Shown here: positions 8,177-64,000 of the stretch, in pieces
How the letters are laid out: each line of letters starts with the position of its first letter
Position numbering within the stretch: the stretch's first letter is position 1
DNA from: Flavisolibacter ginsengisoli DSM 18119
Lineage (GTDB): Bacteria > Bacteroidota > Bacteroidia > Chitinophagales > Chitinophagaceae
Length of the DNA stretch: 64,000 bases
Assembly: GCF_900129295.1 (NCBI RefSeq)
Contig: NZ_FQUU01000008.1
Coordinates: 124,001-188,000 of the forward strand
Direction: 5' to 3'
Notes under the pieces: generated by a model
Told to the model about the DNA's origin: nothing
Databases searched by the model: none
The model's input: the letters and a program-made list of their open reading frames with translations, nothing else
Program-made: the position numbers and the translations under genes

Positions 8177-8233
8177 GAATACAAAACTATTTGTTTAACA
8201 AAAGTCTTTTGACCCATCCCTTATTTTTGTCAG

Positions 8234-47900: not shown

Positions 47901-48342
47901 TTTGAGTTTAGGCATCGATGTTAATGGAGTATATGGAAACGAGATCTTCAGAACATGGGGATCATTGGAATCACCTTTCCAGCGTGTGAACTATGCGGCT
48001 TTCCAGATAGATGCATGGCACGGACCTGGCACTTCAAACTGGGTTCCATTGGTTAGCCAGGCCGATCGTTTTAATTATAACGGATCAACCTATAATATTG
48101 AAGATGGTAGTTACTTCCGTATTCGAAATGTGCAACTGGGTTATAATTTTGGAAGAAGCACTATATCCAGGTTAAAAATGACTAACCTACGTATCTATGC
48201 CAACGTTCAAAACTTAAAGACCTTTAAGCACAATTATGGATATACAGCAGAATATGGTGGTGATGCAACTGGCTTTGGCTTTGACAATGCCGGTGGTGCT
48301 TTACCAATGGTAGGAACTATAGGTTTGAATGTTACTTTTTAA
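44920..48342 (+). CDS. susC: SusC/RagA-type TonB-linked outer-membrane protein with STN domain
   Basis: The 1140-residue transporter imports oligosaccharides with SusD. Its order is: signal sequence (about residues 1-40), STN domain (VTLNLQSADLKKVLTEIQKK, residues about 44-110), a carboxypeptidase-D regulatory-like beta domain (ISGKVTGQNGEGLAGVSISV), a TonB-box region (DEIVVIGYGTASKRDLTGS), plug (PDIRIRGTISIGQVHPLYVV) and a large beta-barrel ending MVGTIGLNVTF. The STN domain indicates signalling through FecR to the sigma factor. SusD starts 18 bp later. Confidence 0.96.
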   Translation: MKKKRHTTYLKHPNLSNIGRIMKMMCAFMLLICLQVSAAGFNQDRVTLNLQSADLKKVLTEIQKKTTYRFLYDQALINNKKVDVHVKDAEVPAVLNSIFEGIGIGYQIMDNNLIVLKASVNGQKIEVQDIRISGKVTGQNGEGLAGVSISVKGTTIGTTTDAGGNYTLSVPDNSTTLVFSYVGYDAVEEAINGRTTINVSLSSSRNALDEIVVIGYGTASKRDLTGSIVKISGKEVADKPNSNPIASLQGKVAGLSVVNSGTPGQAPDIRIRGTISIGQVHPLYVVDGILQDNIDYLNPNDIESIEVLKDPSSLAIFGVRGATGVIAITTKKARAGQVVVNFNTNYGFKKLVDKIKMADAAQFKTLFDQENLNNGVVDPFDYGPLNANTNWIDAVTRTGKFSNSNLSISGGSDRNKFNFGLGYIYDEGLIVHEKLDRLVLSLGDEFKISNVFKIGVNLNASRQNSPYDATWVLDAARKVMPQISSGTKPFKVRNPYGGDTITQNLYSLLDVGLQNSGVINPLLQVENTWDKTKGVEYRTVGSVFGEVNFLKNFTWRSTFYADMSNVERRTYNPRYYGYNPRTNEVELYSQVTGVNESNQDWRKFQQDHLLTFKKNIGAHGITATGGFTTYYFGNFNRYASSSQPDQNAAPIPNDPRFWYVTNGFENSGSTSSSSGQSEYTTVSYLARVLYNYQNRYFLNASYRDDASSRIPEKNRHQQFWAVGAAWDLTKESFMADQRFFDFLKIKGSIGVLGNQSASDLGGNSLDYPFYPRLNTGTAANFGTVMHAAADPSYIPNPDLKWETVSAKEIGFELNAFQNRLHFEANYFSRTTNNLMTYVSRYTIGQKDELVNGGKIRNWGEELSANWNQNISKDFNITIGGNITFLKNKVISLAQDIPTGVLIRGFQNNGSAEARTLPGYPIGSFYGYVVEGIYQSYADILKSPNAGALGAYRPGDFKFKDVNGDGKITSDDRTVIGNPTPDFTYGSSINFNYKGLSLGIDVNGVYGNEIFRTWGSLESPFQRVNYAAFQIDAWHGPGTSNWVPLVSQADRFNYNGSTYNIEDGSYFRIRNVQLGYNFGRSTISRLKMTNLRIYANVQNLKTFKHNYGYTAEYGGDATGFGFDNAGGALPMVGTIGLNVTF

Positions 48343-48360: not shown

Positions 48361-49941
48361 ATGAAAAAAAATAAAATAATATTCTGGAGTTTATTGGCTG
48401 CTATTCCGATGTTGTTAGCAGTAGCCGGATGTAAAAAGTTCCTGGATCGTAAGCCGCTTACGGCGACCTTACAAGATTTGAACCAGGGCGCCTTAGAGGG
48501 GCAGGTATTAGGGATGTATTCGAACCTCAGAACACTTGCAGGTTTTTCATTACTTCCATGGATCGACTTTCACAGCATTCGGGGTGATGATGCTCAAAAA
48601 GGAAGTGATAATACAGATGGCAATGAAGTGATCACTGAATTTGATACGTACCAATATACCAAGGATGATTGGGCACCCAATACCTATTGGAATGACCACT
48701 ATGCAATGATCAACCTGGCGAACGAAGCTCTATATACAGCAGTTGATTCCTTAAAGGTTTCAGATGCAGCGTCATTAAGAAATATTGGTGAAGCCTGTTT
48801 TTTCAGAGCTTACTCTTACTTTGAATTGGTAAAGACCTATGGAGATGTACCGCTGATCAACTTTAAAGTAAAAACTGCTGCCCAGGGAATTGTACCTAAA
48901 TCACCTGCTTCCAGGATCTATGAATTCATAGATTCCAATTTGCAGGCTGCGGTAAGTTTACTGCCAGTTTCTTCTTCCGAATATGGTGCAGGGTATGATG
49001 GGAGGTTAACTAAAGGGGCGGCCAATACCTTATGGGCACAGACCTATTTGTTCCGAAGTAATTGGGCGAGAGTAGCTGCACTTTGTACAGAGGTAATAGC
49101 TTCCAATCAATATTCATTAGTGCCTAATTTCTCTGATATCTGGAGAACTGAAGGAGAAAATGGTCCTGAATCCATATTCGAAATGCAGGCTTATGTAGGA
49201 CCTGGAGCAGCTTCTAATTCTGCTGTAGATTTCGGTTCTGATTGGGGAACCAGCCAGCAGGTTCGCCGCAACGGAGCGCCTATTGAATGGAACCTTGGCT
49301 GGGGTTGGAATACGCCAACAGATAAGTTGGTTAGTGATTGGCCGGCAGACGATCCCAGGAAACAACAAACAATTTTATTTTCTGGTCAAAATGATGGGGG
49401 CCGTGACCTGGGAGGCTTTGGAGCTAATGTTCCTGCCTATTCCAATCCTGCAGGCACAGGAGGCCTTGCACAGAAATACTGGAATAAGAAATTGTATACA
49501 GGAAATGATCCCACCATTCGTCAGTCAACTGGTTACATCAATGCCAGTGGTGCTGCCCGTTGGATCAACCACAGAATTTTGCGGTACGCAGATGTGATCC
49601 TTATGTTAGCGGAAGCAGACAATGAATTAGGAAATGGTGCAGCTGCTGCTGAAAACCTTGAGTTGATTCGCAACAGGGCCAGTGGTAATAAAGGACCTTT
49701 GCGTACTATAGTTCCAAAGATCGACTTTGTTAACCAGGCGCAAATGCGCCAGGCTATCAAAGACGAAAGACGTTGGGAGTTTGCCATGGAAGGATACCGC
49801 TTCTACGACCTGGTGCGTTGGGGTGATGCAGATGCCGTGCTTGGACCACTTGGATATACACATCGGGCGAGGTTCTATCCTATTCCGCAAAAAGCAATTG
49901 ATCTTTCAGGTGGTGTACTGACACAAAATCCAGAATGGTAA
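48361..49941 (+). CDS. susD: SusD/RagB-type glycan-binding lipoprotein
   Basis: The 526-residue outer-membrane lipoprotein has the lipobox VAGC, the lipid on Cys24, then KKFLDRKPLTATLQDLN. TPR-like helices follow, with ALYTAVDSLKVSDAASLRNIGEACFFRAYSYFELVKTYGDVPL, a hallmark of the family. The C-terminus has ERRWEFAMEGYRFYDLVRWGD and the final YPIPQKAIDLS. It binds glycans and forms the lid of SusC. A perfect 12-bp hairpin follows the gene. Confidence 0.96.
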   Translation: MKKNKIIFWSLLAAIPMLLAVAGCKKFLDRKPLTATLQDLNQGALEGQVLGMYSNLRTLAGFSLLPWIDFHSIRGDDAQKGSDNTDGNEVITEFDTYQYTKDDWAPNTYWNDHYAMINLANEALYTAVDSLKVSDAASLRNIGEACFFRAYSYFELVKTYGDVPLINFKVKTAAQGIVPKSPASRIYEFIDSNLQAAVSLLPVSSSEYGAGYDGRLTKGAANTLWAQTYLFRSNWARVAALCTEVIASNQYSLVPNFSDIWRTEGENGPESIFEMQAYVGPGAASNSAVDFGSDWGTSQQVRRNGAPIEWNLGWGWNTPTDKLVSDWPADDPRKQQTILFSGQNDGGRDLGGFGANVPAYSNPAGTGGLAQKYWNKKLYTGNDPTIRQSTGYINASGAARWINHRILRYADVILMLAEADNELGNGAAAAENLELIRNRASGNKGPLRTIVPKIDFVNQAQMRQAIKDERRWEFAMEGYRFYDLVRWGDADAVLGPLGYTHRARFYPIPQKAIDLSGGVLTQNPEW

Positions 49942-50006: not shown

Positions 50007-50843
50007 ATGAATTACATGAATAAAATAGTTAGAAGCACAGTGATCCTGGCTGCTTTTAGCTTTGCGGTGATGGGATGTCAGAAAATGGACCGACCTACTT
50101 TAGGAGATTATGCAAAAGATACAAATCCTCCCGGAGGTCCCCTAAAATTTTATGCTGCCATGGATGGCACTTCAGTTGACAGTACAAGAGCCAACTTTGG
50201 TGCTGAAAAAGATATTACTTATACAGCGGGTGTGCAAGGACAAGCAATGGATGGTACACATAATGGCTATATAAGCTATGGTTCGGCTAATGATTTTAAA
50301 AAATCTACCAGTTTTACTGTTGCCTTTTGGCTGAAGAAAAATGGTCCCAATCCGGCCGGAGCTGGTACATCTTTCGTCTTTGGTTTAGCTACTACAACAG
50401 ATATATGGACAAAACAGGACATGTTCCTTGAGTTTGAAGATGCCGGAAATCCAAGCAGTGCCGACCTGGCTTCTGCCAAGTTCTATTTATTAGATCAGTG
50501 GTTTGAATTTACAGGTGCTAAAAGAATGCCTCATGTATTGGACGGTCAGTGGCATCATTTAGCATTTACATTTGATCAAACTACCTCAACACTTACTACG
50601 TACATTGATGGACAAGCTTTCACTAATCTTCCTGCAGATTTTGGAAAGTTTACAAATAATGGCGGACAGGTTAATTTCTCAAAATCTGCTGGTTTAGTAA
50701 TTGGTGGTGCAGGACATTATGCTATTGGTAAAACTCCAGATAGCTGGATGGGTAATTTTAATGGTATGATTGATCAATTCAGGTTATATGATACTGCTCT
50801 TTCTGCTAGTGAAGTTGCAGATTTGTTTACGAACAAAAAATAA
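50007..50843 (+). CDS. LamG-like (concanavalin A-type) surface lipoprotein
   Basis: The 278-residue lipoprotein has the lipobox FAVMGCQ (Cys24). A laminin-G-like jellyroll covers residues about 45-275: MDGTHNGYISYGSANDFKKS, FTVAFWLKKNGPNPAGAGTS, HVLDGQWHHLAFTFDQTTST, TTYIDGQAFTNLP and MIDQFRLYDTALSASEVADLF. These are typical of LamG_3 domains. Its position after susD equals that of SusE/SusF, so it is likely a surface glycan-binding protein. A bidirectional terminator follows. No catalytic residues were seen. Confidence 0.88.
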   Translation: MNYMNKIVRSTVILAAFSFAVMGCQKMDRPTLGDYAKDTNPPGGPLKFYAAMDGTSVDSTRANFGAEKDITYTAGVQGQAMDGTHNGYISYGSANDFKKSTSFTVAFWLKKNGPNPAGAGTSFVFGLATTTDIWTKQDMFLEFEDAGNPSSADLASAKFYLLDQWFEFTGAKRMPHVLDGQWHHLAFTFDQTTSTLTTYIDGQAFTNLPADFGKFTNNGGQVNFSKSAGLVIGGAGHYAIGKTPDSWMGNFNGMIDQFRLYDTALSASEVADLFTNKK

Positions 50844-50930: not shown

Positions 50931-52202
50931 TTATTTTTTCCGGGGTTCTTTTTTTAATTCAAGAAGTATTCTCTTTGTTTCATCAGGATAAATACTAACA
51001 TAGTGCGAGCGGATCATAGCTGCTACTGGCTGCTCCTCCCCTTGTAATCTTACAGCAATAGCTTTTGAAGGCTGCAATGGCATGTGGCAATCAATACAAT
51101 TACTGGTAATTACTTTACCCAGGCTTTGGGTTAATTTACAATCAGAACCATGTCCATTGTTATGACATTCCATACATCTCTGTGAAAACAATGCAGTTTG
51201 CCCTTTCTCCCGCTGGTGAGTATTGTGACAAGTATTACAAGTCAATGTCTGCGTCATTCTAAAACATTTACTTGCCCGCATCAACGCGTATTGATTTCCA
51301 TGCACATCAATATTTTCAGGCTTCGGAGCAGTGGTATCTACAATATAAAAATCAGATAGCTTATCTCCCACCTTAAAGCTAAATGAAGGCTGTGTTTTTT
51401 GAAGGCGGCCTCCATGGCACGATGCACATAGATCAAGGTTCTGCTGTCTCGATAAAGATGCCGGGTTGATAATAAACTGTCCTTTCTTTTCATTGGGATG
51501 CGCTGACTGAAAGTCCACATGCTTTGCTGCGGGTCCATGGCATTTTTCACAGTCAACACCAAGTATTAATCTCGTTGAATCAAACCTCTCAGGCTCAATC
51601 CCGGGGTCTGAGATAGTTTTAGCATAAGTGGCATGACACTCCAGGCAACGGGAAGTAATTACACGGTTGAAAACTACCTTATCGGGAAATCCGGGACTAT
51701 TAGACCATGTGTCAGCTGCTGTGAAATAAGTTATGGGTAATTGAAACAATTTATGGTCTGACCAATAAAGATAGCTCTGGCCCATAGTGCCCGAACCAAC
51801 CACAATGTCAAAGCGTTTGGCCTTCTTCTGCTGGTCTCGAAAATATTCCACCTGGTAAAACCCATTAGATCTTTTTTCCATTTCCACGACAACGCTGGCA
51901 TTAAAAAAATAGGCATTCTTTCCTGCCTCAAAGCTTCCCTTGATATATTCAGCAGTAGCAGGCCTGGAAGTTAGATAATGAGCCGTTTTCAAATGATGAT
52001 CAAAAATATCTTTATGACAACCGGCACAGGAGGCAGAACCAGCAAACCTTTCACCTGAAGCGTTTTCAATTACTCCTGGGTTTTCATCCTTCTTATCTGA
52101 GCATTTTGAAAAAACTAACACCCCTATGGCCATTAAACCAACTATGGTGACAGTACGTGGATATTTCAGTATTCTTTTGAATGTAAAAGGATAGGTTGCC
52201 AT
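50931..52202 (-). CDS. Multihaem cytochrome c lipoprotein (7 CxxCH)
   Basis: The 423-residue exported protein has one N-terminal membrane/lipobox segment (VTIVGLMAIGVLVFSKC). Seven c-type haem motifs are present: CAGCH, CLECH, CEKCH, CASCH, CNTCH, CMECH and CIDCH. Many additional His residues could be distal ligands. The arrangement resembles cytochrome c554/NrfA-like multihaem modules and DmsE-type electron carriers; the catalytic CxxCK of NrfA is absent. It is transcribed away from and divergent to the CRTAC1-like gene (122 bp gap), inside a glycan locus. Electron partner unknown. Confidence 0.9.
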   Translation of the reverse strand: MATYPFTFKRILKYPRTVTIVGLMAIGVLVFSKCSDKKDENPGVIENASGERFAGSASCAGCHKDIFDHHLKTAHYLTSRPATAEYIKGSFEAGKNAYFFNASVVVEMEKRSNGFYQVEYFRDQQKKAKRFDIVVGSGTMGQSYLYWSDHKLFQLPITYFTAADTWSNSPGFPDKVVFNRVITSRCLECHATYAKTISDPGIEPERFDSTRLILGVDCEKCHGPAAKHVDFQSAHPNEKKGQFIINPASLSRQQNLDLCASCHGGRLQKTQPSFSFKVGDKLSDFYIVDTTAPKPENIDVHGNQYALMRASKCFRMTQTLTCNTCHNTHQREKGQTALFSQRCMECHNNGHGSDCKLTQSLGKVITSNCIDCHMPLQPSKAIAVRLQGEEQPVAAMIRSHYVSIYPDETKRILLELKKEPRKK

Positions 52203-52324: not shown

Positions 52325-55300
52325 ATGCCTTCAAAAGGCCTCTCTTTTTTATCATGTATAGCCTTTGTTTTGCTATTTAATTCCTGTGAGAAAAAAAGCA
52401 GTTTATTCACCAGCCTTTCGGCATCTAAAACAAATATCCATTTCGCTAACAACCTGGAAAAACGTGACTTGTTCAGCATCCTCTATTACCTGTATTATTA
52501 CAATGGTGGCGGAGTTGCTACAGGGGACATTAATAATGACGGATTACCTGATATTTATTTCACAGCCAATAGTAAAGGTCATAACAAACTCTATCTCAAC
52601 AAAGGTAACTTTCAATTTGAAGATATTACAGACAAGGCAGGAGTTGCAGGTAATTCAGATTGGTGCAGTGGTGTAACCATGGCGGATGTAAATGGCGACG
52701 GTAACCTGGATATATATGTTTCTGCCGTAGCCAACCACCATGGACTACAAGGACGTAATGAATTATTTATTAATAATGGTAATGGAACATTTACCGAAAG
52801 CGCTGCTAAATACGGTCTTGATTTTTCTGGTTTCACTACCCAGGCAGCATTCTTTGATTATGACCATGATGGCGACCTCGATTGTTATATTTTAAACCAG
52901 TCGCATCAACCAAACCAAAACATTGTTGATACCATCAACCGGAGAAAGTTCGATAAATATGCCGGTGACAGGCTGTATAGAAACGACATGAATACGCCTG
53001 CTGGAAAATTTACAGATGTTTCAGCAAGCGCAGGCATTTACCAGAGCAGCCTGGGTTATGGCCTTGGTATTGCTATAGCCGATATGAATAATGATGGATG
53101 GGATGATATTTATATAGGTAATGATTTTCACGAGAATGACTATTACTATGTCAATAACGGCAATGGCAGTTTTACAGAAAGCGGTTCAAAGGTTTTTAAT
53201 CATTACTCCAGGTTCAGTATGGGTAATGATATTGCAGATTATAACAATGATGGCCAACCCGACCTGGTAACAGTGGATATGCTGCCAAAGGATGAAAAAG
53301 TTTTAAAGACCTATGGAAGCGATGAAAATGCAGATATCTATAAGTTGAAGATACTGAGGAACGGATACCAGTATCAATATTCAAAGAATTGCCTGCAACG
53401 CAATAATGGTAATGGTGCAAGTTTTAGTGAAACAGCGCTCTTAAGCGGTGTTTCGGCAACCGACTGGAGCTGGTGTCCTTTATTTGCCGATTTTGACAAT
53501 GATGGGTCAAAGGATCTTTTTGTTTCCAGTGGCATTGTAAAACGCCCTGTTGACCTGGATTACGTGAAATTCGTTTCTAACCTGTACATGCATAAAGCAT
53601 TGAATACTTCTGACAAATATGATGATATGGCATTGGAAAAAATGCCTGATGGGAGTTCTCATCCTTTTTTATTTAAGGGAGATGGGCAAAATTATTTTAA
53701 GGATGTCAGTGATGACTGGGGAACTGGTAAAATGAAAGGTTATTATAATGGTAGTTCTTATGCTGATCTTGATAATGATGGCAATCTTGACCTTGTAATA
53801 AACTGTATTGATGCACCTGCAGTGATTTTAAAAAATAATGCGCCACGCAAAAACTACATAACACTAGCATTGCAGGGGGATGGCCTTAACAGAATGGGAC
53901 TGGGCACCAAAGCTTATGTTTTTGTCAATGGCAAAATGCAATACCAGCAAGTAATGGCAACAAGGGGTTTTCAATCAAGTTCAGATACGAGGTTGCATTT
54001 CGGACTTGATTCTGCAGCCAGGGTAGACAGTTTATTAATAGTCTGGCCTGATCAGAAATGGCAGGTATTAAAAAATCTTAAGACTAATCAAATATTGCAT
54101 ATACAACAAAAAGAAGCAGCGGGTCATTTTGACTACAACCGCTTTTTTCCTCCCCCGCCATCTTATTTATTTCCTATAACCAGCCTGGTTACAAACTGGC
54201 AACATAAGGAGAATGATTTTGAAGACTACAATGTTCAATACCTTATTCCCCATGCAGAATCAACCCGCGGTCCTAAGATAGCTGTGGCAGATGTGAATGG
54301 CGATGGCCTTGATGATATGTATGCCTGCGGGGCAAAAGGACAACCCGGGACATTGTTGCTGCAAAAACCGGGTGGATCTTTCATTACAAGTGATACGGCT
54401 GTTTTTAAACAAGATGCAGCAAGTGAAGATGTAGATGCGATCTTCTTTGATGCCAATGGCGATAAAAAGCCTGACCTCTACGTAGTAAGTGGGGGAAATG
54501 AATATACAGGCAATGACCCTGCCCTGCTGGACCGCTTATATATTAATGATGGCAAGGGCCACTTTGCAAGGACAGCAAATGCATTACCGGATTTGTTTCA
54601 GAATAAATCCTGTGTGAGTGCGGCAGACATAGACCATGATGGTGATATGGATCTGTTTGTTGGGAACCTGGCCAATGCAAAAGCATATGGCATTCCCCAA
54701 ACTTCGGAACTTCTCCTTAACGATGGCAAAGGGAATTTTAAAGTAGCTGACAATGGTATCATGCCCTTATTGAATATAGGAATGGTAACAACAGCCATAT
54801 TCACCGATATCAACCATGATGGATGGAGTGACCTATTACTCGCTGGTGAATGGATGCCTATTACAGTATTCACAAATAACCATGGAAAGTTTGTAAAAAC
54901 CGAGATACCCCATACAACGGGATGGTGGCAAAATATCTTTGCCGATGATGTGAATGGGGATGGGAAAATGGACATACTTGCAGGAAATTGGGGATGGAAC
55001 AACAAATTTGAAGATGGTAAAAACAGTCCTGTAAAACTTTACGTAGCTGATTTTGATAAGAATGGGCAAACTGACCAGTTATTATCTTATACAAAAGATG
55101 GAATCGAGTATCCTTTTCTTGCCAAGGACGAAATGGAAAAGGCATTGCCAGTTTTAAAGAAACATTATCTATTATATGCTGATTATGCTGGCCTGCCCAT
55201 GAAGGATGCGTTTTATGGATTTGCGGAAACAGTTAAACCCCTGGAAGCAGAAAGACTAGGTTCTGCTGTTTGTTTTGGAGATGGTAATGGAGGCTTCACA

Positions 55301-55621
55301 GTTAAAGACCTGCAGGCAAACTTGCAGTTGGCCCCTATTTTCAGTTTTCAAAAGATAGGTCTTCCAAATAATATAAGTGGATACCTGGCCGGTGGCAACT
55401 TTTTTGATGTTATTCCCTATGAGGGACGTTATGATGCCCAGGCACTTGCCTTATTTAGTATCAATAAGCAACAGGTTCACTATTTCAATGACCCAAATAT
55501 ATCTGGCTTAAAAGAGCAGGTAAGAGATATTAAATGGATAAAGACTGGTGCTGGACCTGTGCTTGTAGTAGCCGGAAATAATAGTCCATTAAAATTTTAT
55601 AGTTTGACCACCCCGAAATGA
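52325..55621 (+). CDS. CRTAC1-like lipoprotein with FG-GAP/VCBS repeats and ASPIC/UnbV domain
   Basis: The 1098-residue surface lipoprotein has its lipobox near LLFNSCEKKSS (Cys21). At least 12 calcium-loop FG-GAP/VCBS motifs occur, such as GDINNDGLPDIYFTAN, ADVNGDGNLDIYVSA, DYDHDGDLDCYIL, ADFDNDGSKDLFVSS and DDVNGDGKMDILAGN. They sit in two blocks (residues about 60-500 and 650-950) around a UnbV/ASPIC domain near residues 515-600 (MGLGTKAYVFVNGKMQYQQV ... VWPDQKW). The family is often paired with SusCD loci and multihaem cytochromes. It heads the operon that carries the GH144 genes. Confidence 0.92.
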   Translation: MPSKGLSFLSCIAFVLLFNSCEKKSSLFTSLSASKTNIHFANNLEKRDLFSILYYLYYYNGGGVATGDINNDGLPDIYFTANSKGHNKLYLNKGNFQFEDITDKAGVAGNSDWCSGVTMADVNGDGNLDIYVSAVANHHGLQGRNELFINNGNGTFTESAAKYGLDFSGFTTQAAFFDYDHDGDLDCYILNQSHQPNQNIVDTINRRKFDKYAGDRLYRNDMNTPAGKFTDVSASAGIYQSSLGYGLGIAIADMNNDGWDDIYIGNDFHENDYYYVNNGNGSFTESGSKVFNHYSRFSMGNDIADYNNDGQPDLVTVDMLPKDEKVLKTYGSDENADIYKLKILRNGYQYQYSKNCLQRNNGNGASFSETALLSGVSATDWSWCPLFADFDNDGSKDLFVSSGIVKRPVDLDYVKFVSNLYMHKALNTSDKYDDMALEKMPDGSSHPFLFKGDGQNYFKDVSDDWGTGKMKGYYNGSSYADLDNDGNLDLVINCIDAPAVILKNNAPRKNYITLALQGDGLNRMGLGTKAYVFVNGKMQYQQVMATRGFQSSSDTRLHFGLDSAARVDSLLIVWPDQKWQVLKNLKTNQILHIQQKEAAGHFDYNRFFPPPPSYLFPITSLVTNWQHKENDFEDYNVQYLIPHAESTRGPKIAVADVNGDGLDDMYACGAKGQPGTLLLQKPGGSFITSDTAVFKQDAASEDVDAIFFDANGDKKPDLYVVSGGNEYTGNDPALLDRLYINDGKGHFARTANALPDLFQNKSCVSAADIDHDGDMDLFVGNLANAKAYGIPQTSELLLNDGKGNFKVADNGIMPLLNIGMVTTAIFTDINHDGWSDLLLAGEWMPITVFTNNHGKFVKTEIPHTTGWWQNIFADDVNGDGKMDILAGNWGWNNKFEDGKNSPVKLYVADFDKNGQTDQLLSYTKDGIEYPFLAKDEMEKALPVLKKHYLLYADYAGLPMKDAFYGFAETVKPLEAERLGSAVCFGDGNGGFTVKDLQANLQLAPIFSFQKIGLPNNISGYLAGGNFFDVIPYEGRYDAQALALFSINKQQVHYFNDPNISGLKEQVRDIKWIKTGAGPVLVVAGNNSPLKFYSLTTPK

Positions 55622-55631
55622 TCAGAATACA

Positions 55632-57293
55632 ATGAAACAACTATTTTATACCTGCATCTTTATACTTTCCGTAGTTACATTCACCCAATGCAGTAAATCA
55701 TCAACCCCGGAACCACAGCCAACTCCTACTCCATCCAGTTTTTCTTTGAAATCCTGGTCAGTAGATGGATGGACAGGCAATATTGCAAGCAGAACACCCG
55801 AAGTGAAATTAAATTTCTCGACTGCCATTGATAAAAGCACGGTTTCAGGTAACATATCTTTTAACCAGACTTCCGGCACCAACGTGCCATATGATGTTGT
55901 TTATAGTAATGCTGACAATACCCTTGCAATAAAACCTACAGCACCGTTAGTTCCATTAACAAAATACAGGATAAGTGTATCAAAGGGATTAAAATCTGCC
56001 AGTGGAGGAAATCTTAATGCGGCTACTGAGATCAACTTCATGACAACGATTGATTCTTCTGACAAGTTTGCACAGATCAGTGATTCTGCCTTGATAGAAT
56101 TGGTACAGAAACAGACCTTCAAATACTTCTGGGATTTTGGTCATCCTGTAAGTGGATTAGCAAGGGAAAGAAATACTTCAGGAGATATTGTTACATCAGG
56201 AGGCTCGGGGTTCGGTATCATGGCAATTGTAACGGGGGTAAACAGGGGCTTTATTACCAGGGCACAGGGATTGGACAGATTGCAAACCATGGTTAGTTTT
56301 TTAAAAAATACTGCCCGGAAAGTACATGGGGCATTCCCCCATTGGTTAAATGGGGCCACAGGTGCAATAGTACCCTTTAGCCAGAAAGATGATGGCGCTG
56401 ACCTTGTTGAAACATCCTACCTCATGCAGGGACTCTTATGCGCAAGACAATATTTTAATGGCAATGACGCCAATGAAACAACATTAAGAACGGATATAAA
56501 TGCCTTATGGAATGGTGTGGAATGGAACTGGTTTCGCCGAAACAATGAAAACACTTTGTATTGGCATTACAGTGAGAATTACAGCTGGGACATGAATATG
56601 CCAATAAAAGGATGGAATGAATGCCTGATAACCTATGTGCTGGCAGCTTCTTCACCCACTTATTCAATTCCCAAAATAGTTTATGATAATGGATGGGCAC
56701 AAAATGGAGGTATGAAAAATGGACAAAGCTATTATGGCTATGTGCTGCCCCTGGGACCTGAAAAGGGAGGACCATTATTTTTCAGCCATTACTCTTTCCT
56801 GGGAATTAATCCAAATAACCTTACAGATGCCTATGCAGATTATCACACACAGGTAGTTAATCATACAAAAATCAATTACGAATATTGCAAATCGAACCCA
56901 AACGGGTATTACGGGTACAGTGATCAGTGCTGGGGACTTACGGCAAGCGACATACAAAATGGATATACTGCCAGCTCTCCTACCAATGATGTAGGTGTCA
57001 TAGCGCCTACGGCTGCATTATCATCTTTTCCCTACACTCCAACAGAATCTATGAAAGCTTTAAAATTCTTTTATTATAAGCTAGGCGACAAGCTATGGGG
57101 TCCTTATGGTTTTTATGATGCTTTTAGCCTGAAGGATGGATGGTTTGCCAATTCATACCTGGCCATCGACCAGGGACCAATCATTGTTATGATTGAAAAT
57201 TACAGAACTGGATTACTTTGGAATTTATTTACGAGTTGCCCGGAAGTTAAAACCGGTATGAAATCACTTGGTTTTACAGCTCCTTATTTATAA
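55632..57293 (+). CDS. GH144-like (glucoamylase-like) lipoprotein with Ig-like domain, copy 1
   Basis: The 553-residue lipoprotein (Cys20 in TFTQCSKSS) has a Pro/Thr linker and a bacterial Ig-like domain (SbsA/Big_5 type, residues about 38-140: EVKLNFSTAIDKSTVSGNIS ... LTKYRISVSKGLKSASGGNL). The catalytic domain (residues about 150-553) is PF10091/GH144-like: TFKYFWDFGHPVSGLARER, FGIMAIVTGVNRGFITRAQG, FPHWLNGATG and KDDGADLVE (252-260). Later blocks are CWGLTASD and NYRTGLLWNLF. GH144 enzymes characterised in Chitinophaga are endo-beta-1,2-glucanases. Substrate inferred. Confidence 0.88.
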   Translation: MKQLFYTCIFILSVVTFTQCSKSSTPEPQPTPTPSSFSLKSWSVDGWTGNIASRTPEVKLNFSTAIDKSTVSGNISFNQTSGTNVPYDVVYSNADNTLAIKPTAPLVPLTKYRISVSKGLKSASGGNLNAATEINFMTTIDSSDKFAQISDSALIELVQKQTFKYFWDFGHPVSGLARERNTSGDIVTSGGSGFGIMAIVTGVNRGFITRAQGLDRLQTMVSFLKNTARKVHGAFPHWLNGATGAIVPFSQKDDGADLVETSYLMQGLLCARQYFNGNDANETTLRTDINALWNGVEWNWFRRNNENTLYWHYSENYSWDMNMPIKGWNECLITYVLAASSPTYSIPKIVYDNGWAQNGGMKNGQSYYGYVLPLGPEKGGPLFFSHYSFLGINPNNLTDAYADYHTQVVNHTKINYEYCKSNPNGYYGYSDQCWGLTASDIQNGYTASSPTNDVGVIAPTAALSSFPYTPTESMKALKFFYYKLGDKLWGPYGFYDAFSLKDGWFANSYLAIDQGPIIVMIENYRTGLLWNLFTSCPEVKTGMKSLGFTAPYL

Positions 57294-57313
57294 TATTTTT
57301 TACTGCCTGCTAA

Positions 57314-58651
57314 ATGAATAAAATACTCTTCACCTTCTTTGCCATACTGCCTTTTTATTTGAGTGCGCAGAATCCTGTTCCACTTCAAAGACCAAAGAAC
57401 CTTTCAGATACGGCCTTACTGGAATTAGTACAAAAACAAACGTTTAAATACTTCTGGGATTTTGCACATCCCATAAGTGGATTAGCCAGGGAAAGGAGCA
57501 ATGTGGCTTATGAGTACGGCAACGAAGTGGTTACAACAGGTGGTAGTGGTTTTGGCGTCATGTCCGTCATAGTAGCTGCAGAAAGAGGATGGATCAAAAG
57601 AGACACAGCCGCCAGGTTTTTATTGAAGCTTGTCAGTTTTTTAAGTAAGGCCAATTCTTACCATGGCGTATTCCCCCATTGGATGAACGGAGCAACAGGG
57701 CAAACTATTCCTTTCAGTCGGAAAGATGACGGGGCAGATCTTGTAGAGAGTTCATACCTGTTCCAGGGCCTGTTGTGTGCCAGGCAATATTTTACAGCAG
57801 ATAACCAGGTTGAAAGAGATCTGCGCAACCGGATCAATTGGCTGTGGAATGATATAGAATGGAACTGGTTCACTAAAGGAGGCGAAGAAGTGTTATACTG
57901 GCACTGGAGTCCCAATAATGGCTGGGCCATGAACTTCCCCATTCGTGGTTTTAATGAATGCCTGATCGTGTATGTATTAGCAGCATCTGGTGAACACTAT
58001 CCTGTGTCCAGTGCAGTTTACCATAGAGGATGGGCTCAAAGCAACTTTTTTAAAAATGGTAAATCCTTTTATAATATTCAATTACCACTAGGGTTTGATT
58101 ATGGCGGACCATTGTTCTTTAGCCAATATTCATTCCTCGGTCTTGACCCCCGTGGACTGAAAGACCGGTACGCAGATTATTGGGAACAGAATAAAGCACA
58201 CACCCTTATCAACAGGGCTTATTGCATCGATAATCCGAAAAAATGGAAAGGCTTTGGGGAGAATTGCTGGGGACTGACAGCAAGTGATAGCTGGGTAGGC
58301 TATGCAGCGCATTCACCCACGGAAGACCTGGGCGTGATTTCACCTACTGCGGCACTATCTGCATTTCCCTATACACCACAATATTCTATGCAGGCATTGA
58401 AACATTTTTACAATGATCTTGGAGATAAAATATGGAGTGATTACGGGTTTATTGATGCCTTTAGTGAATCAAAGAACTGGTATGCCAAATCTTACCTTGC
58501 TATTGACCAGGGACCCATTATTTCGATGATTGAAAATTACAGGACAGGATTACTTTGGAAGTTATTCATGAGTTGCCCGGAAGTACAACACGGTCTGCAA
58601 AAACTAGGATTTGAAAGTCCACATATAAAACCATTACCTGAACCTAAATAG
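57314..58651 (+). CDS. GH144-like enzyme, copy 2 (minimal form)
   Basis: The 445-residue enzyme has a type I signal peptide, MNKILFTFFAILPFYLSAQ, and then essentially only the catalytic domain. Motifs: TFKYFWDFAHPISGLARERS, FGVMSVIVAAERGWIKRDTA, FPHWMNGATGQTIPFSRKDD, the acidic motif ADLVESSYL, CWGLTASDSW and NYRTGLLWKLFMSCPEV. It has the full domain with no accessory modules and is predicted to be periplasmic, in contrast to copy 1. It lies 20 bp after copy 1 with no terminator between them, so they are probably co-transcribed. Confidence 0.9.
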   Translation: MNKILFTFFAILPFYLSAQNPVPLQRPKNLSDTALLELVQKQTFKYFWDFAHPISGLARERSNVAYEYGNEVVTTGGSGFGVMSVIVAAERGWIKRDTAARFLLKLVSFLSKANSYHGVFPHWMNGATGQTIPFSRKDDGADLVESSYLFQGLLCARQYFTADNQVERDLRNRINWLWNDIEWNWFTKGGEEVLYWHWSPNNGWAMNFPIRGFNECLIVYVLAASGEHYPVSSAVYHRGWAQSNFFKNGKSFYNIQLPLGFDYGGPLFFSQYSFLGLDPRGLKDRYADYWEQNKAHTLINRAYCIDNPKKWKGFGENCWGLTASDSWVGYAAHSPTEDLGVISPTAALSAFPYTPQYSMQALKHFYNDLGDKIWSDYGFIDAFSESKNWYAKSYLAIDQGPIISMIENYRTGLLWKLFMSCPEVQHGLQKLGFESPHIKPLPEPK

Positions 58652-58657
58652 AATTCA

Positions 58658-60814
58658 TTGAGAACACTTCCGGTAATAATTTGCTTGCTGTTTACTATTG
58701 CCTGCAAGGCCCAGGAACTGCCATATACCTACCAGTTCTTTGTCAATAGCCGCATGGAGGGCAATTATTTTTATAGTAAGGTAGTAATAGAAGGATCCTC
58801 TTATATAAAAAGTGAAAAGGATAGATTGCCTGTCCACGATAGTAATTTTTTTACCCCCGGCAATTCTCTTTTATTGGAATATAAAAACAGTGCAAAAGGT
58901 AACTGGATGGCTTTCATCTATAAACCAGCATTCAGAGGCCAGGATCATTTTATTCCTTCACACTTTCTTTCTTTCCACCTTTTAGCTTCTACAGTTATAT
59001 CCCGCAGTAATCTTCCCTACGTACAGCTTTTGTTACGAGACAGTAGCCTGACAAAAAAAAATGCTATAACGATAAAGAATTCGGGCAAATGGGAAACAAT
59101 AAACATTCCCCTGGCTGAATTTGATAAAAGGGAATTTAAAGATCCCAGGGAAATCATCGGGATCGTTTTTTCACAACAGGGCACCAGTGAAACAATCCAG
59201 CGCATTTTTGTAGACGATATAGAGTTGACCGGCTCAATAAAGACAAAAACTGTAAAAGAAAGACCTGTTATACTAACAATAAATAGATATGCAAGACATA
59301 TTGATATTAATTGGAAGCCTGTAACTGATACCAATATCAAATATGTGAAGATCTATAGATCTGAAAACGGAAACCCTTTTAAACCAGTTGGCATACAAGC
59401 AATGTCTATCCATAGGTATTCAGATTTTGTTGGGGAAACAGGAAGGTCGTACCTGTATAAGATCTCCTTCCTGAATTCAAACTACCAGGAAACGGCTCTA
59501 TCCAAACAAGTAAAAGCTAGAACAAGGTCTATGAATGATGAACAATTAATGGATATGGTTCAGGAAGCCTGTTTCAGGTATTATTGGGAAGGAGCTGAAT
59601 CAAATAGTGGTATGGCAAGGGAAAATATTCCTGGCTGGCAATCCATGATCGCGACAGGTGCCTCCGGTTTCGGAATTATGGCATTGTTAGTGGGTGCAGA
59701 ACGGAAATTTATAACCAGGCAACAATTGGTAGACCGTTTTAAAAAGATCGTGAGCTTTCTTGAAAAAGCAGATACATTTCATGGGGCTTTTCCACATTTC
59801 ATTGCTGGGAACACAGGTAAAGTAGAACCTTTTTTTGGCAAACGGGATAACGGTGGAGACCTGGTTGAGACATCATTCCTATTACAAGGGTTGATAGCTG
59901 CGAGGGCTTATTTTAAAGAAAGTAATAAGGATGAAGAACAAATAAGAAAAGGCATTACCTCCATCTGGGAAAGAATTGAATGGGACTGGTACAGGAGGTT
60001 CCCGGACAGTAAATTCCTGTACTGGCACTGGTCGCCGGACCAGGCATGGGTAATCAATCACCGGCTGATAGGATGGAATGAGACCATGGTAACTTACCTG
60101 TTAGCTATAGCCTCTCCTGGCCACCCTGTACCTGCTAGTCTATATTACTCAGGATGGGCCAACCAGGATAGCACTGGACAACAATACCGAAGCGCCTGGG
60201 GAGGTACAAGAGAAGGTTCAATGTACACTAATGGTAACAGTTATTTCGGCATTAAGCTGGATGTTGGCGTTTCCAATGGAGGCCCCTTATTTTTTACCCA
60301 TTATTCTTATCTGGGCTACGATCCTCACCAGTTGACAGACAAATACACCAATTACTTCACCAATAACCAGCACATTGCTCAGATCAACCTGAATTATTGC
60401 ATAACTAATCCGCACCATTACAAAGGATATGGTGATAGCTGCTGGGGCCTGACAGCCAGTGACGGCCCTTTCCATTATTCAGCGGATGAGCCGGTATTCA
60501 ATCGTGACCTGGGCAAGATAGCACCCACGGGTGCATTGGCTTCATTTCCTTATACTCCACGGGAATCAATGAGTGCCTTGAAGAATTACTATTACAACTA
60601 TGGCAAATTTCTTTGGGGGGAGTATGGTTTTCGTGATGCCTTTGATCTCAATGAAAACTGGTGTTCAGATATCTATATGGGTTTGAACCAGGCACCTATA
60701 GTAGTAATGATGGAAAATTACCGTACCGGTTTGCTCTGGAAGCTTTTCATGAGTGATAAGGATGTGCAAAATGGTTTAAAGAGATTGAATAAAGAAACTG
60801 CTGAAAGAAACTAG
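58658..60814 (+). CDS. GH144-like enzyme, copy 3, with N-terminal jellyroll and Fn3-like domains
   Basis: The 718-residue secreted protein starts at TTG (58658) 6 bp after copy 2's stop, since no ATG precedes the signal peptide MRTLPVIICLLFTIACKAQ. Residues about 20-195 look like a CBM-type galactose-binding fold (LLLEYKNSAKGNWMAFIYKP ... GKWETINIPLAEFDKREFKD ... IFVDDIELTG). Residues about 205-290 are fibronectin III-like (HIDINWKPVTDTNIKYVKIY). The catalytic domain (about 293-715) has KRDNGGDLVETSF, CWGLTASDGP and NYRTGLLWKLFMS. It differs at the acidic motif (NGG instead of DGA), so activity or specificity may differ. Confidence 0.87.
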   Translation: MRTLPVIICLLFTIACKAQELPYTYQFFVNSRMEGNYFYSKVVIEGSSYIKSEKDRLPVHDSNFFTPGNSLLLEYKNSAKGNWMAFIYKPAFRGQDHFIPSHFLSFHLLASTVISRSNLPYVQLLLRDSSLTKKNAITIKNSGKWETINIPLAEFDKREFKDPREIIGIVFSQQGTSETIQRIFVDDIELTGSIKTKTVKERPVILTINRYARHIDINWKPVTDTNIKYVKIYRSENGNPFKPVGIQAMSIHRYSDFVGETGRSYLYKISFLNSNYQETALSKQVKARTRSMNDEQLMDMVQEACFRYYWEGAESNSGMARENIPGWQSMIATGASGFGIMALLVGAERKFITRQQLVDRFKKIVSFLEKADTFHGAFPHFIAGNTGKVEPFFGKRDNGGDLVETSFLLQGLIAARAYFKESNKDEEQIRKGITSIWERIEWDWYRRFPDSKFLYWHWSPDQAWVINHRLIGWNETMVTYLLAIASPGHPVPASLYYSGWANQDSTGQQYRSAWGGTREGSMYTNGNSYFGIKLDVGVSNGGPLFFTHYSYLGYDPHQLTDKYTNYFTNNQHIAQINLNYCITNPHHYKGYGDSCWGLTASDGPFHYSADEPVFNRDLGKIAPTGALASFPYTPRESMSALKNYYYNYGKFLWGEYGFRDAFDLNENWCSDIYMGLNQAPIVVMMENYRTGLLWKLFMSDKDVQNGLKRLNKETAERN

Positions 60815-60837
60815 CCGATTATCTAATTGATTGAATA

Positions 60838-62133
60838 ATGCCTAAGTATATCTCCTTTTTATACGTGTTTGCTTTGATTAAGAAATACAATTCACAAAAA
60901 ATACCAGCCATTTTTCACCTGGCACTATTGCTAGCTTTTTCTACTCAATTATTTGCTCAAAAGGCACATAAGGCAATCTTCATTATTGCCGATGGAATAC
61001 CTGCTGATGTGATTGAAAAATTACCTACACCTGCACTGGATGAAATTAGCAGGCAGGGAGGCTACACCCGTGCCTACGTAGGTGGAGAGAAAGGAGGTTA
61101 TTCCCAAACACCCACCATTTCAGCAGTGGGTTACAATAGCTTGCTTACTGGCACCTGGGTTAATAAACACAATGTATGGAATAACGATATCAAATCACCC
61201 AATTACGCCTACTGGAATATTTTCAGGCTATTAAAAAATCAATATCCCCAAAAGAAGACCGCTGTTTTCTCTACATGGCTTGACAACAGGACCAAATTAG
61301 TGGGAAGTAAAGTGAAAGAAGCAGATAACCTGGAACCCGATTTTCATGTGGATGGATTAGAGTTAGATACTGTCAAATATACCCATGATACCGCAGGCTA
61401 TTTCTACCACCTTATAGATGAAGCGGTTACAGATAGTACTGTTTCCAACATTAAAGAAAAGGCCCCTGACCTGACATGGGTATACCTTGAATATACGGAC
61501 GAAATGGGCCACCGACATGGAAATAGCAAATACCTGGACAATGCCGTTCTGATGCTTGATAAGCAGGTCCATAGAATATGGCAGGCTATTCAATATCGCC
61601 AGCAAAATTTCAAAGAAGATTGGGAACTTTATATTACCACTGATCATGGAAGGGATTCAATTGGTTACAATCATGGAGGGCAGAGTCCAAGAGAAAGAAC
61701 TACATGGATCGTTACCAATGCAAAGGGTTTGAATAAAAGGTTTACAAAAGAACAACCAGCTATTGTAGATATCATGCCGTCTTTAGCTAGGTTCTTACAG
61801 ATCAACATACCCCATGAACAGTTAATGGAAGTAGATGGTATTCCCTTGACAGGTAAAATATCGGCAACCAATGCCAGGGCTATCCTCATCAAAGATAAGA
61901 TCAGGGTTAGCTGGAAGGCAATTGACAGAAGAGGGAAAGCAAAGATTTGGCTGGCCACCACGAATTCCTTTAAGACAGGTGGCAGAGATAAATACCAACT
62001 GGTGGCAACCATACCTGTAGGTGCACAAAAGGCAATAGTTGACGTAAAGAATACCCCTTCCAGTTTTTATAAAATAGTCATTGAAATGCCTTTTAACATG
62101 TTGAACCGATGGATAGTGATTAATAAAAAATGA
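60838..62133 (+). CDS. Alkaline phosphatase superfamily enzyme (type I phosphodiesterase-like)
   Basis: The 431-residue protein has a signal region ending LLAFSTQLFA-Q. The metal-binding core: Asp52 in IIADGIP, a Thr/Ser nucleophile segment SQTPTISAVGYNSLLTG (T93/S95 are candidates), EYTDEMGHRHG (Asp221, His225), TTDHGRD (Asp269, His270) and NHGGQSPRER (His279). The C-terminal ~80 residues (KDKIRVSWKAIDRRGKAKIW ... YKIVIEMPF) are Fn3-like. The family hydrolyses phosphodiesters, phosphomonoesters or sulfates. It sits between two GH144-like genes. It may act on phospho-substituents of glycans, which is inference. Confidence 0.85.
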   Translation: MPKYISFLYVFALIKKYNSQKIPAIFHLALLLAFSTQLFAQKAHKAIFIIADGIPADVIEKLPTPALDEISRQGGYTRAYVGGEKGGYSQTPTISAVGYNSLLTGTWVNKHNVWNNDIKSPNYAYWNIFRLLKNQYPQKKTAVFSTWLDNRTKLVGSKVKEADNLEPDFHVDGLELDTVKYTHDTAGYFYHLIDEAVTDSTVSNIKEKAPDLTWVYLEYTDEMGHRHGNSKYLDNAVLMLDKQVHRIWQAIQYRQQNFKEDWELYITTDHGRDSIGYNHGGQSPRERTTWIVTNAKGLNKRFTKEQPAIVDIMPSLARFLQINIPHEQLMEVDGIPLTGKISATNARAILIKDKIRVSWKAIDRRGKAKIWLATTNSFKTGGRDKYQLVATIPVGAQKAIVDVKNTPSSFYKIVIEMPFNMLNRWIVINKK

Positions 62134-62137
62134 AGCA

Positions 62138-63583
62138 ATGAAGAGTAAGTTTCACATCACCTTTTTAAGCATCGCTGTTTTATGTTTTAGCACATCTCTC
62201 TATGCGCAAAAAACCAAACAGGCAGGTGGACGCACCTATCCTGATTCCATTGCACCTGTGGGGATCATTAAAGGATTGAATGACGACCAATTACTGGAAG
62301 TAGTACAAAAGCAAACATTCAGGTATTTCTGGCATGGGGCTCACCCGGTGAGCGGGCTGGCGCTTGAAAGAAGCAATACGGTTCTGGCTGAACATTACTG
62401 GGACTATATTAATGAAGCCTGGGGAGAACCCAATTTCAGTAAAACACCTTTTGGCCCTGACGCTGGAGCTATAGGCGGAACAGGGTTTGGTATCATGAGT
62501 ACAGTGGTAGCTGTTAGCCGGGGCTGGATAGGGCGTGATACCGCTGTGAGACGATTGATAAAAATTGCTGACTTCCTCATCAAGGCTGATTGTTACCATG
62601 GTATCTACCCGCATTTTATGAATGGAAGAACGGGAAAGACCATTCCCTTTGACAGGCTGGATGATGGGGCTGACATTGTTGAAACCTCCTATCTGCTCAT
62701 GGGGTTTTTGTGTGCGAGAGAATACTTTAATAGTAGTGATCCAAGGGAAGTGTATTTACGTAACCGCATCAACCAGATGTGGGGTGCCGCCAATTGGAAC
62801 TGGCATACAAAAGGAGAAAATAAGTTGTATTGGCACTGGAGCCCTAATAACGATTTCGACATGAACTTTCCTGTGTGGGGATGGAATGAATGCCTGATCA
62901 CATATATCATGTCGGCTTCTTCACCTAACCATTCCATTTCTAAAGATGTATACAACGGATCCTGGGTAGGAAGTCCTGGCTTTAAAAACGGAAAGGAATA
63001 TTATGGATTCAAACTCCCCCTGGGAAATTATGATAAGGACAAGGGCGGACCATTATTCTTTGAACAATACACCTTCCAGGGTATTGACCCAAATGGACTA
63101 ACAGACTCCCTGGGTAATGACTATTTTATGCAGGGAAAAAACCACACCCTCATCAACAGGGCTTATTGTATTGAAAACCCCAAAAAGTATAAAGGTTATA
63201 GTGAAACCTGCTGGGGATTAACGGCAGGTGATAGTTATAAAGGCTATGTAGCCCATAGCCCGGAAAATGATCTCGGAGTGATTCAACCTACAGCAGCCAT
63301 TTCCTCAATGCCCTATACACCAAAGGAAAGCATGCACGCATTACGGTATTTCTATTATGGGCTTGGCAATAAGATCTGGAGCAAATATGGTTTTGTTGAT
63401 GGTTTCAGCATTCATCATAACTGGTATGCAAAAAGCCACCTGGCCATTGACCAGGGGCCAATCGTAGTGATGCTTGAGAATTACAGGACTGGATTGATTT
63501 GGAAGCTTTTCATGCAAATACCTGATATCCAGAATGGTTTAAAAAAATTGGGCTTTACCAGTAAATGGTTTAAAGAAAAATAG
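62138..63583 (+). CDS. GH144-like enzyme, copy 4
   Basis: The 481-residue enzyme has the signal peptide FLSIAVLCFSTSLYAQ. Motifs: TFRYFWHGAHPVSGLALERS, FGIMSTVVAVSRGWIGRDTA, YPHFMNGRTGKTIPF, the acidic motif LDDGADIVETSYL (around residues 174-186), CWGLTAGDSY and NYRTGLIWKLFMQIPDIQ. Compared with the other copies it has an extra ~20-residue insertion near residues 86-110 (EHYWDYINEAWGEPNF ... PFGPDAGA). It starts 4 bp after the phosphatase gene's stop, so the two are translationally coupled. This is support for a shared function. Confidence 0.9.
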   Translation: MKSKFHITFLSIAVLCFSTSLYAQKTKQAGGRTYPDSIAPVGIIKGLNDDQLLEVVQKQTFRYFWHGAHPVSGLALERSNTVLAEHYWDYINEAWGEPNFSKTPFGPDAGAIGGTGFGIMSTVVAVSRGWIGRDTAVRRLIKIADFLIKADCYHGIYPHFMNGRTGKTIPFDRLDDGADIVETSYLLMGFLCAREYFNSSDPREVYLRNRINQMWGAANWNWHTKGENKLYWHWSPNNDFDMNFPVWGWNECLITYIMSASSPNHSISKDVYNGSWVGSPGFKNGKEYYGFKLPLGNYDKDKGGPLFFEQYTFQGIDPNGLTDSLGNDYFMQGKNHTLINRAYCIENPKKYKGYSETCWGLTAGDSYKGYVAHSPENDLGVIQPTAAISSMPYTPKESMHALRYFYYGLGNKIWSKYGFVDGFSIHHNWYAKSHLAIDQGPIVVMLENYRTGLIWKLFMQIPDIQNGLKKLGFTSKWFKEK

Positions 63584-63620
63584 TGGCTGAACTTATTTTA
63601 CAACACTAAACTTATTTCGT

Positions 63621-64000
63621 ATGCATGATAAAATTTCAAGGGAAAGGTTTTTAAAAATGACCGCCCTTGCTGGTGCGGGGCTGTTGGTATCTTCCCTGGA
63701 AAGCTGGGCTGTGGCAACGAACGCCAAAAAGATCAAGGTTGCGGTAATAGGCTGTGGAAGTGTAAGTAACAGGTACCTGCCACAATTACTTTCCTCCTCA
63801 ATGATTGAAGTAGTCGGCCTTTGTGATATCAAATATGATCGTGCTCTTGCCCAGAACAAGCAATACAAGGTGAATGCAGCCACCTACCCTCATATTGACG
63901 CCATGTTAAAAGGTGTGCCTTTTGACATGATGGTTACACTAACTGATATGCAGGTTCATGGAGACCTGAATAAAAAGGCATTGCAGGCAGGGAGGCATGT
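63621..64000 (+). CDS. Gfo/Idh/MocA family oxidoreductase, exported (partial)
   Basis: This is the N-terminal 126 residues of a sugar-type NAD(P)-dependent oxidoreductase. The Rossmann motif IKVAVIGCGSVSNRYLPQLL lies at about residues 37-56, and the family blocks EVVGLCDIKYDRA and DMMVTLTDMQVHGDLNKKAL follow. A leader precedes it, MHDKISRERFLKMTALAGAG, of the Tat type but with Arg-Glu-Arg in place of the twin-Arg pair. It is probably exported to the periplasm. It lies 37 bp after GH144 copy 4 in the same operon and may modify sugar products. It is cut off by the window edge. Confidence 0.88.
   Translation, partial: MHDKISRERFLKMTALAGAGLLVSSLESWAVATNAKKIKVAVIGCGSVSNRYLPQLLSSSMIEVVGLCDIKYDRALAQNKQYKVNAATYPHIDAMLKGVPFDMMVTLTDMQVHGDLNKKALQAGRH

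Follow-up and report, generated by a model that had tools for sequence, protein, structure and literature searches.

Four GH144 subfamilies side by side in a probable beta-1,2-glucan utilization locus of Flavisolibacter ginsengisoli

The window analysed here is a stretch of 64,000 nucleotides of Flavisolibacter ginsengisoli DSM 18119 (Bacteroidota, Chitinophagaceae; contig NZ_FQUU01000008.1, positions 124,001 to 188,000 of the forward strand). Its right-hand part contains a row of six open reading frames (ORFs), all on the plus strand: a CRTAC1-like gene, four genes of glycoside hydrolase family 144 (GH144), termed A, B, C and D in their order, and, between C and D, a gene for an alkaline-phosphatase-superfamily enzyme of NPP-like type (Table 1). 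From the CRTAC1-like gene to D the six genes are separated by 10, 20, 6, 23 and 4 bp, and D is followed after 37 bp by the next ORF, such that the gaps of 4-37 bp given in a first-pass annotation of this DNA are correct. The same annotation had treated the interval 52325-64000 as one operon specialised in beta-1,2-glucan. Its genes are real, but the interval is merely the middle of a locus of around 31.7 kb, which starts at about 39959, runs about 7.6 kb past the window edge on the contig continuing there, and ends at L005:15643 (around 71643 in window numbering; L and G numbers denote sampled locus stretches and genomes, respectively, and L005 is the stretch covering the window's own contig). 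The first pass missed the two GH30 genes, the sigma/anti-sigma pair and the SusC/SusD genes upstream; it also missed downstream genes of GH43, SGNH and esterase type and the evolutionary past of the phosphatase-like gene.

All four GH144-like genes match PF10091 with 221-267 bits (cut-off 27), and a search of the F. ginsengisoli genome yielded exactly these four matches. Since PF10091 also takes in domains of cyclic glucan synthases, such a match is not by itself specific to GH144. In an alignment with CpSGL, the founding GH144 endo-beta-1,2-glucanase, residues E211, E142, D139, D135, F268 and Y330 are conserved in A, B, C and D; in the relevant passages of PMC12102758, E211, F268 and Y330 are given as clan-defining (clan GH-S) and E142 as the base candidate. 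Concerning the sequence blocks said to be shared, the acidic block, CWGLTA and NYRTG are indeed common to all four proteins, whereas HP-x-SGLA is found in A, B and D and is replaced by SNSGMAREN at that place in C, so that this part of the first description was over-generalised. Catalytic-domain identity between pairs of the four is 45-62%. A, B and D are nearer to the uncharacterised chain 4gl3 (58, 66 and 58% identity) than to CpSGL (55, 59 and 51%). A plasmid search with B returned 93 records, with a top identity of around 60%. D exhibits an extra loop of about 25 residues ahead of the GGTGFG block, which is poorly predicted (segment 87-96 with pLDDT below 50); the predicted structure of D as a whole reaches Z 57.6 to 4gl3 and Z 55.1 to CpSGL (5gzk; root-mean-square deviation 1.8 over 413 residues). 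The CpSGL-like (alpha/alpha)6 fold is thus assigned by model for D, whereas the other three were assigned to it solely by matching their sequences to solved chains.

C aligns with 5z06 over residues 20-712 (E 3.5e-253), with 68% identity over the catalytic-domain columns, and both possess Asn at the position of CpSGL D400. According to the PDB titles, 5z06 is the beta-1,2-glucanase BDI_3064 from Parabacteroides distasonis, which we take to be the exo-type enzyme of the GH144 literature. Such an exo-type GH144 homologue is described, in passages of PMC8861115 and PMC11842490, as releasing sophorose from non-reducing ends and as acting on beta-1,2-gluco-oligosaccharides. As both the N-terminal part and the GH144 domain are covered, and as C falls with 5z06 into a six-row clade with a support of 100, C is, by homology, of the exo-acting BDI_3064 type (EC 3.2.1.214), which speaks for the staged action of enzymes proposed earlier.

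The tree from which this clade is taken comprises 84 rows and was calculated by a quick method with SH-aLRT support only; its rows were named A to D according to which of the window's proteins gave the highest phmmer score. The rows of A (25), C (5) and D (23) each lie to one side of a branch with a support of 100. Among the 27 rows labelled B, ten belong to the clade that holds CpSGL and 3eu8, and the B of the window stands in a B clade of 15 rows. None of the window's four copies is situated within the CpSGL clade, members of which occupy the B slot of other loci; that a CpSGL-type enzyme is able to fill this slot suggests that B may do similar work. Judged from these sequences, A to D are four subfamilies recurring side by side in Chitinophagaceae and not recent copies of one another.

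How unusual the cluster is depends on the group considered. PF10091 was found in 105 of 296 genomes sampled across the phylum, with four matches in F. ginsengisoli only and three in ten genomes, and in 100 of 146 genomes of the family. Within the family, 21 genomes, picked for high PF10091 counts, clusters or a linked NPP-like gene, were scanned in full, and in two of them (G059, G154) the PF10091 domains of all four subfamilies are gathered within 10 kb. The list of PF10091 positions with which the GH30 genes were compared (see below) does not include a partial match in G121, single matches in G052 and in G129, and six very long frames of around 2,900 amino acids, probably cyclic beta-1,2-glucan synthases (G050:C15, G059:C1, G121:C1, G130:C39, G073:C66 and G124:C1); F. 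ginsengisoli has no such frame. The metagenome-assembled genome UBA1946 (L076) has all four subfamilies and, between C and D, the phosphatase-like gene, in the order of the window and with other genes interspersed. Among 28 locus stretches (the window included; repeat loci L077, L108 and L114 left out), four contain four GH144 genes, 19 contain three, three contain two and two contain one; these are cut-outs of around 10-20 kb, such that absences are not firm. The two stretches examined from the same genus (L071, L072) possess A, a CpSGL-clade B and D, and lack C and the phosphatase-like gene. The first-pass statement that four copies are far beyond the usual one or two therefore holds for the phylum, where four GH144 genes are rare, yet not for the family, where three or four recur as a pattern.

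The four GH144 genes are part of a larger, largely co-directional arrangement (Table 1). The SusC/SusD tandem is linked to glycan-active enzymes of the same direction, the single interruption on the opposite strand being the cytochrome gene, and this organization is that of a polysaccharide utilization locus (PUL), as had been supposed. To the left of the GH30 genes follow genes of a Mla-type ABC transporter, which were taken as the locus border. The CRTAC1-like gene, already recognised as such in the first pass, is present in 19 of the 28 locus stretches. The GH3 gene sought downstream of 64000 exists and scores 990.9 bits with the NCBI BglX model (cut-off 666). Signal-peptide and lipoprotein-type starts were assigned by eye. 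A Rfam scan of the window gave no match above threshold.

Table 1. Genes of the locus, in window numbering unless preceded by L005
Feature	Position	Strand	Evidence
GH30 enzyme 'b', nearest model endo-beta-1,6-glucanase	39959..41440	+	PF02055 155.8 bits
GH30 enzyme 'a'	41479..42948	+	PF02055 245 bits
ECF-type sigma factor, likely regulator	43104..43676	+	TIGR02985 133.8 bits (cut-off 126.4)
FecR-type anti-sigma regulator	43738..44826	+	PF16344 and PF04773 above cut-off
SusC-like TonB-dependent outer-membrane transporter	44920..48342	+	TIGR04056 749 bits (cut-off 368)
SusD-like lipoprotein	48361..49941	+	PF07980 and PF14322 above cut-off
LamG-type lectin-fold protein, lipoprotein-type start, possibly glycan-binding	50007..50843	+	PF13385 64 bits (cut-off 27.6)
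Multihaem cytochrome c-like protein	50931..52202	-	Cytochrome_C554 and related Pfam matches
CRTAC1-like protein with FG-GAP repeats and UnbV_ASPIC, lipoprotein-type start	52325..55621	+	PF13517, PF07593
GH144 subfamily A: Big_5 domain and PF10091, lipoprotein-type start	55632..57293	+	PF10091 247 bits
GH144 subfamily B: signal peptide	57314..58651	+	PF10091 267 bits
GH144 subfamily C: full-length homologue of BDI_3064 (5z06), TTG start as listed	58658..60814	+	PF10091 221 bits
Alkaline-phosphatase-superfamily, NPP-like putative phosphodiesterase, Ser95 likely nucleophile	60838..62133	+	PF01663 (Phosphodiest) 59 bits (cut-off 23)
GH144 subfamily D: own clade, extra loop	62138..63583	+	PF10091 251 bits
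Gfo/Idh/MocA oxidoreductase, two overlapping ORFs	63621-64771 (L005:7621-8256, 8220-8771)	+	N- and C-terminal halves on separate ORFs
Beyond the window, after Gfo/Idh: PhyH, DoxX, esterase-type hydrolase, GH43, SGNH hydrolase, GH3	to L005:15643		

Several of these neighbours deserve mention in their own right. The Gfo/Idh gene, split here into two ORFs, is a single ORF of around 390-400 amino acids in several sister loci, which indicates a frameshift or a sequencing error. The multihaem cytochrome gene is seen in 9 of the 28 stretches, in both orientations, with no role evident. The GH43 gene with an F5/8 domain (L005:10899-12656) occurs in 15 of the 28; it is divergent, without a close solved relative, and might represent a candidate new specificity. 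In L057, L058, L060, L061 and L076, the GH144 genes are accompanied by one for a PKD protein; it bears a CHU_C type IX secretion signal and may be secreted to bind glycan or another ligand.

Concerning the GH30 pair, the best PDB match of GH30b is 5ngk (E 7.2e-83) and that of GH30a is 2wnw (E 3.1e-86); with the NCBIfam model NF053856 (endo-1,6-beta-glucanase BT3312; cut-off 700) they score 392 and 268 bits, respectively. In 21 genomes, which were picked for GH144 clusters or the linked gene and not for GH30, 27 of the 52 GH30 matches have a PF10091 gene no more than 20 kb away (0.63 expected), and 16 of the 21 genomes contribute to this.

The gene between C and D was correctly placed in the alkaline-phosphatase superfamily by the first pass. 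Residues D52, S95, N116, D221, H225, D269, H270 and H279 are identical throughout the 22 rows compared, among which the window protein appears twice, and the spacing of 21 between Ser and Asn equals that of T79 and N100 in the title of 5too; the assignment of Ser95 as nucleophile rests on a weak alignment. The domain match and the conserved metal-site Asp/His set with this nucleophile are those of an NPP-type (PF01663) enzyme. The fold of the predicted structure (pLDDT 91) is about equally close to SPAP, PafA and XaNPP (Z 26.5, 25.8 and 25.7, tied), and the sequence profiles (1.4e-7 for NPP versus 0.0017-0.005 for SPAP/PafA) favour NPP-type phosphodiesterases. A sulfatase identity was rejected: despite the top Foldseek rows being sulfatases (TM around 0.4-0.5), the formylglycine signature [CS]xPxR is found in 0 of 92 homologues (residues 61-130 of the trimmed sequences).

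Whether this gene belongs to the glucan pathway at all has to be weighed, as it might be a passenger with a phosphorus-scavenging function on free phosphodiesters and without a part in glucan degradation. It is present in 37 of the 146 family genomes and lies within around 10 kb of a PF10091 gene in only four of these 37, F. ginsengisoli included (a few of the assemblies being very fragmented); in one more genome, G114, the two genes are about 20 kb apart on one contig (C12:569390-591939). Linkage to GH144 as a general rule is thereby rejected. The best 80 of 577 confirmed stretches with NPP-like genes, 68 of which cover at least around 9 kb on each side, contain a GH144 gene in the covered flank in 7 cases, and three of these 7 are contigs already counted among the four linked family genomes. 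In 33 of these best 80, a SusC- or SusD-like ORF is situated within three genes, similar to the Flavobacterium phosphate-utilisation loci outlined in parts of PMC8115612, and just 8 of the 28 GH144 stretches, a set partly picked for holding the gene, carry it.

These proportions make a passenger a real possibility, somewhat short of an even chance; the history of the linked copies tells against it. In a tree of 92 NPP-like rows, all longer than 395 residues and largely freed of duplicates (the identical pair L044/L091 was kept), the eight distinct GH144-linked copies all fall into one nine-row clade with a support of 100/99, the ninth row being Flavihumibacter soli (L085), which has no GH144 gene in the covered flank. 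Seven of the eight stand directly before D, which is a stable and not a scattered arrangement, whereas the copy in L034 sits a few genes away; in L082, a SusC/SusD pair, the NPP-like gene and D stand together. Since all linked copies share this one clade, the simplest reading is that the gene was probably recruited into the GH144 locus once. A cassette of SusC, SusD-like_2 and NPP-like genes recurs elsewhere in Chitinophagaceae and in a Rufibacter genome (e.g., L037, L038, L042, L043, L083, L101 and L133, around position 10000) and may constitute a phosphodiester-utilisation system; a SusD-like partner within three genes of the NPP-like gene is found in 22 of the best 80 of 577 loci.

From the gene content, the conserved catalytic residues, the identity of the subfamilies and the recurring neighbourhood, all of them observed, we infer location, regulation, substrate and all activities, and consider the locus likely to be a PUL that targets beta-1,2-linked glucan and belongs to a type conserved among Chitinophagaceae; of the first-pass annotation, the observation is thus confirmed and the beta-1,2-glucan interpretation partly supported. 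According to this proposal, the sigma/anti-sigma pair would sense the substrate, A with its lipoprotein-type start would cut the glucan on the cell surface, and the SusC/SusD proteins, together with the LamG and CRTAC1-like proteins, would bind and import the fragments. In the periplasm, B and D would cut further, C would take sophorose units off the non-reducing ends, and GH3 would release glucose; the GH30 pair would handle beta-1,6 links, and the NPP-like and esterase-type enzymes would strip charged groups.

Several points weigh against this proposal. A, B and D being nearer to the uncharacterised 4gl3 than to CpSGL, homology leaves their substrate unfixed. Both GH30 scores are under the cut-off of the endo-1,6-glucanase model, the GH43 has no evident function in the breakdown of a pure glucan and no close solved relative, and the gene set is patchy, as the two stretches of the same genus show. 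Furthermore, a GH35 enzyme from a Bacteroides xylanisolvens PUL with GH144 is, according to part of PMC11739564, a beta-1,2-galactosidase that is inactive on beta-1,2-gluco-oligosaccharides, and neighbours are therefore an uncertain guide to the substrate.

Within the PUL proposal, the substrate may be narrowed. The natural periplasmic glucans of Gram-negative bacteria such as Salmonella and Pseudomonas are described in passages of PMC11842490 as short beta-1,2-linked chains that bear beta-1,6-glucose branches and are substituted by succinate, phosphoglycerol or phosphoethanolamine, and the GH30 pair together with the NPP-like gene suggests such a branched, decorated bacterial periplasmic glucan as substrate. 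It is conceivable, and is put forward tentatively, that decorated periplasmic glucans from other bacteria serve this locus as a source of both carbon and phosphorus; it would then be a hybrid locus, in which the once-recruited phosphodiesterase strips phosphoglycerol or similar groups, the beta-1,2 backbone is cleaved by the GH144 enzymes, and beta-1,6 branches and acyl groups are taken off by the GH30 pair and by esterases, respectively. The phosphodiesterase would have come from a phosphate-scavenging setting. In the open-licence literature, nothing was found that joins osmoregulated periplasmic glucans with polysaccharide utilization, or beta-1,2-glucan with Bacteroidetes and phosphoglycerol; most subscription papers lay outside this scope.

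Less likely, the target is another glycan with beta-1,2 and beta-1,6 links, such as an exopolysaccharide or a fungal or lichen glucan, the branches of which are possibly removed by the GH43. We regard this as unlikely, even if the GH30 pair is nearest to an endo-beta-1,6-glucanase model, the divergent GH43 recurs in over half of the stretches and A, B and D lean towards 4gl3: over its full length, C is homologous to the exo enzyme whose substrates, according to the passages cited above, are beta-1,2-gluco-oligosaccharides, and CpSGL-clade enzymes occupy the B slot in other loci. That the enzymes serve to trim beta-1,2-glucan made by the cell itself, and not to feed on foreign glucan, is very improbable; some relatives with GH144 clusters do have frames of 2,100-2,940 amino acids that match PF10091 less strongly and probably encode cyclic glucan synthases (a guess from length and domain), but F. 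ginsengisoli has no PF10091 match beyond the four, a profile search of its genome for MdoG/OpgG (PF04349) gave no match, and SusC/SusD genes are linked. Recent tandem duplication, with four near-redundant copies kept for dosage only, would explain why genes of one family are adjacent or nearly so, but is contradicted by the GH144 tree, in which each copy groups with sequences of other genomes and not with its neighbours, and by the pairwise identities of 45-62%, and is rejected.

The enzymes that dismantle decorated periplasmic glucans are little known, and the locus offers candidates for each feature of such a molecule. The division of labour among the four GH144 subfamilies is measurable, and the recruitment of the phosphoesterase is traceable. 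If the substrate is indeed a decorated periplasmic glucan, the locus would show how the osmoregulatory glucans of one bacterium, with the phosphorus they carry, are recycled by another.

Compared with known systems, the four GH144 enzymes agree with CpSGL (5gzh/5gzk) in all tested catalytic and clan-defining residues and, in the case of D, in the fold, whereas all of them stand outside the CpSGL clade. To the exo-acting BDI_3064 (5z06), C is similar from end to end, including the Asn, a likeness known by sequence. In the Ignavibacterium album SGL cluster, listed in part of PMC8861115 as containing two GH144 genes together with GH3, GH94 and GH35, more than one GH144 is likewise staged with other beta-1,2-glucan enzymes; an ABC transporter and a phosphorylase are found there, whereas GH30, GH43 and the NPP-like gene are found here. 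The PusCD systems of Flavobacterium, which according to passages of PMC8115612 combine PusCD with phosphodiesterases and with phosphoesterases of other Pfam families, share with some relatives of the NPP-like gene the position of SusC/SusD beside a phosphoesterase, but differ in the Pfam families of the latter.

The organization of the locus can finally be set beside that of GH144 PULs of marine Bacteroidota, which carry a sulfatase as stated in part of PMC6499787; for Maribacter, one GH3 and two GH144 genes with susCD and sulfatase genes are mentioned in a passage of PMC8072126. Common to these and to the locus of F. ginsengisoli is the clustering of SusC/SusD, GH144 and GH3 with an alkaline-phosphatase-superfamily enzyme that may remove a charged group, whereas the latter stands apart by its four GH144 subfamilies, its pair of GH30 genes and its NPP-like enzyme, which lacks the [CS]xPxR signature. 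By analogy, the NPP-like enzyme would be the counterpart of the marine sulfatase for a phosphorylated glucan, and, if decorated periplasmic glucans are the substrate, the locus as a whole would be to phosphate what the marine GH144 loci with a sulfatase are to sulfate.

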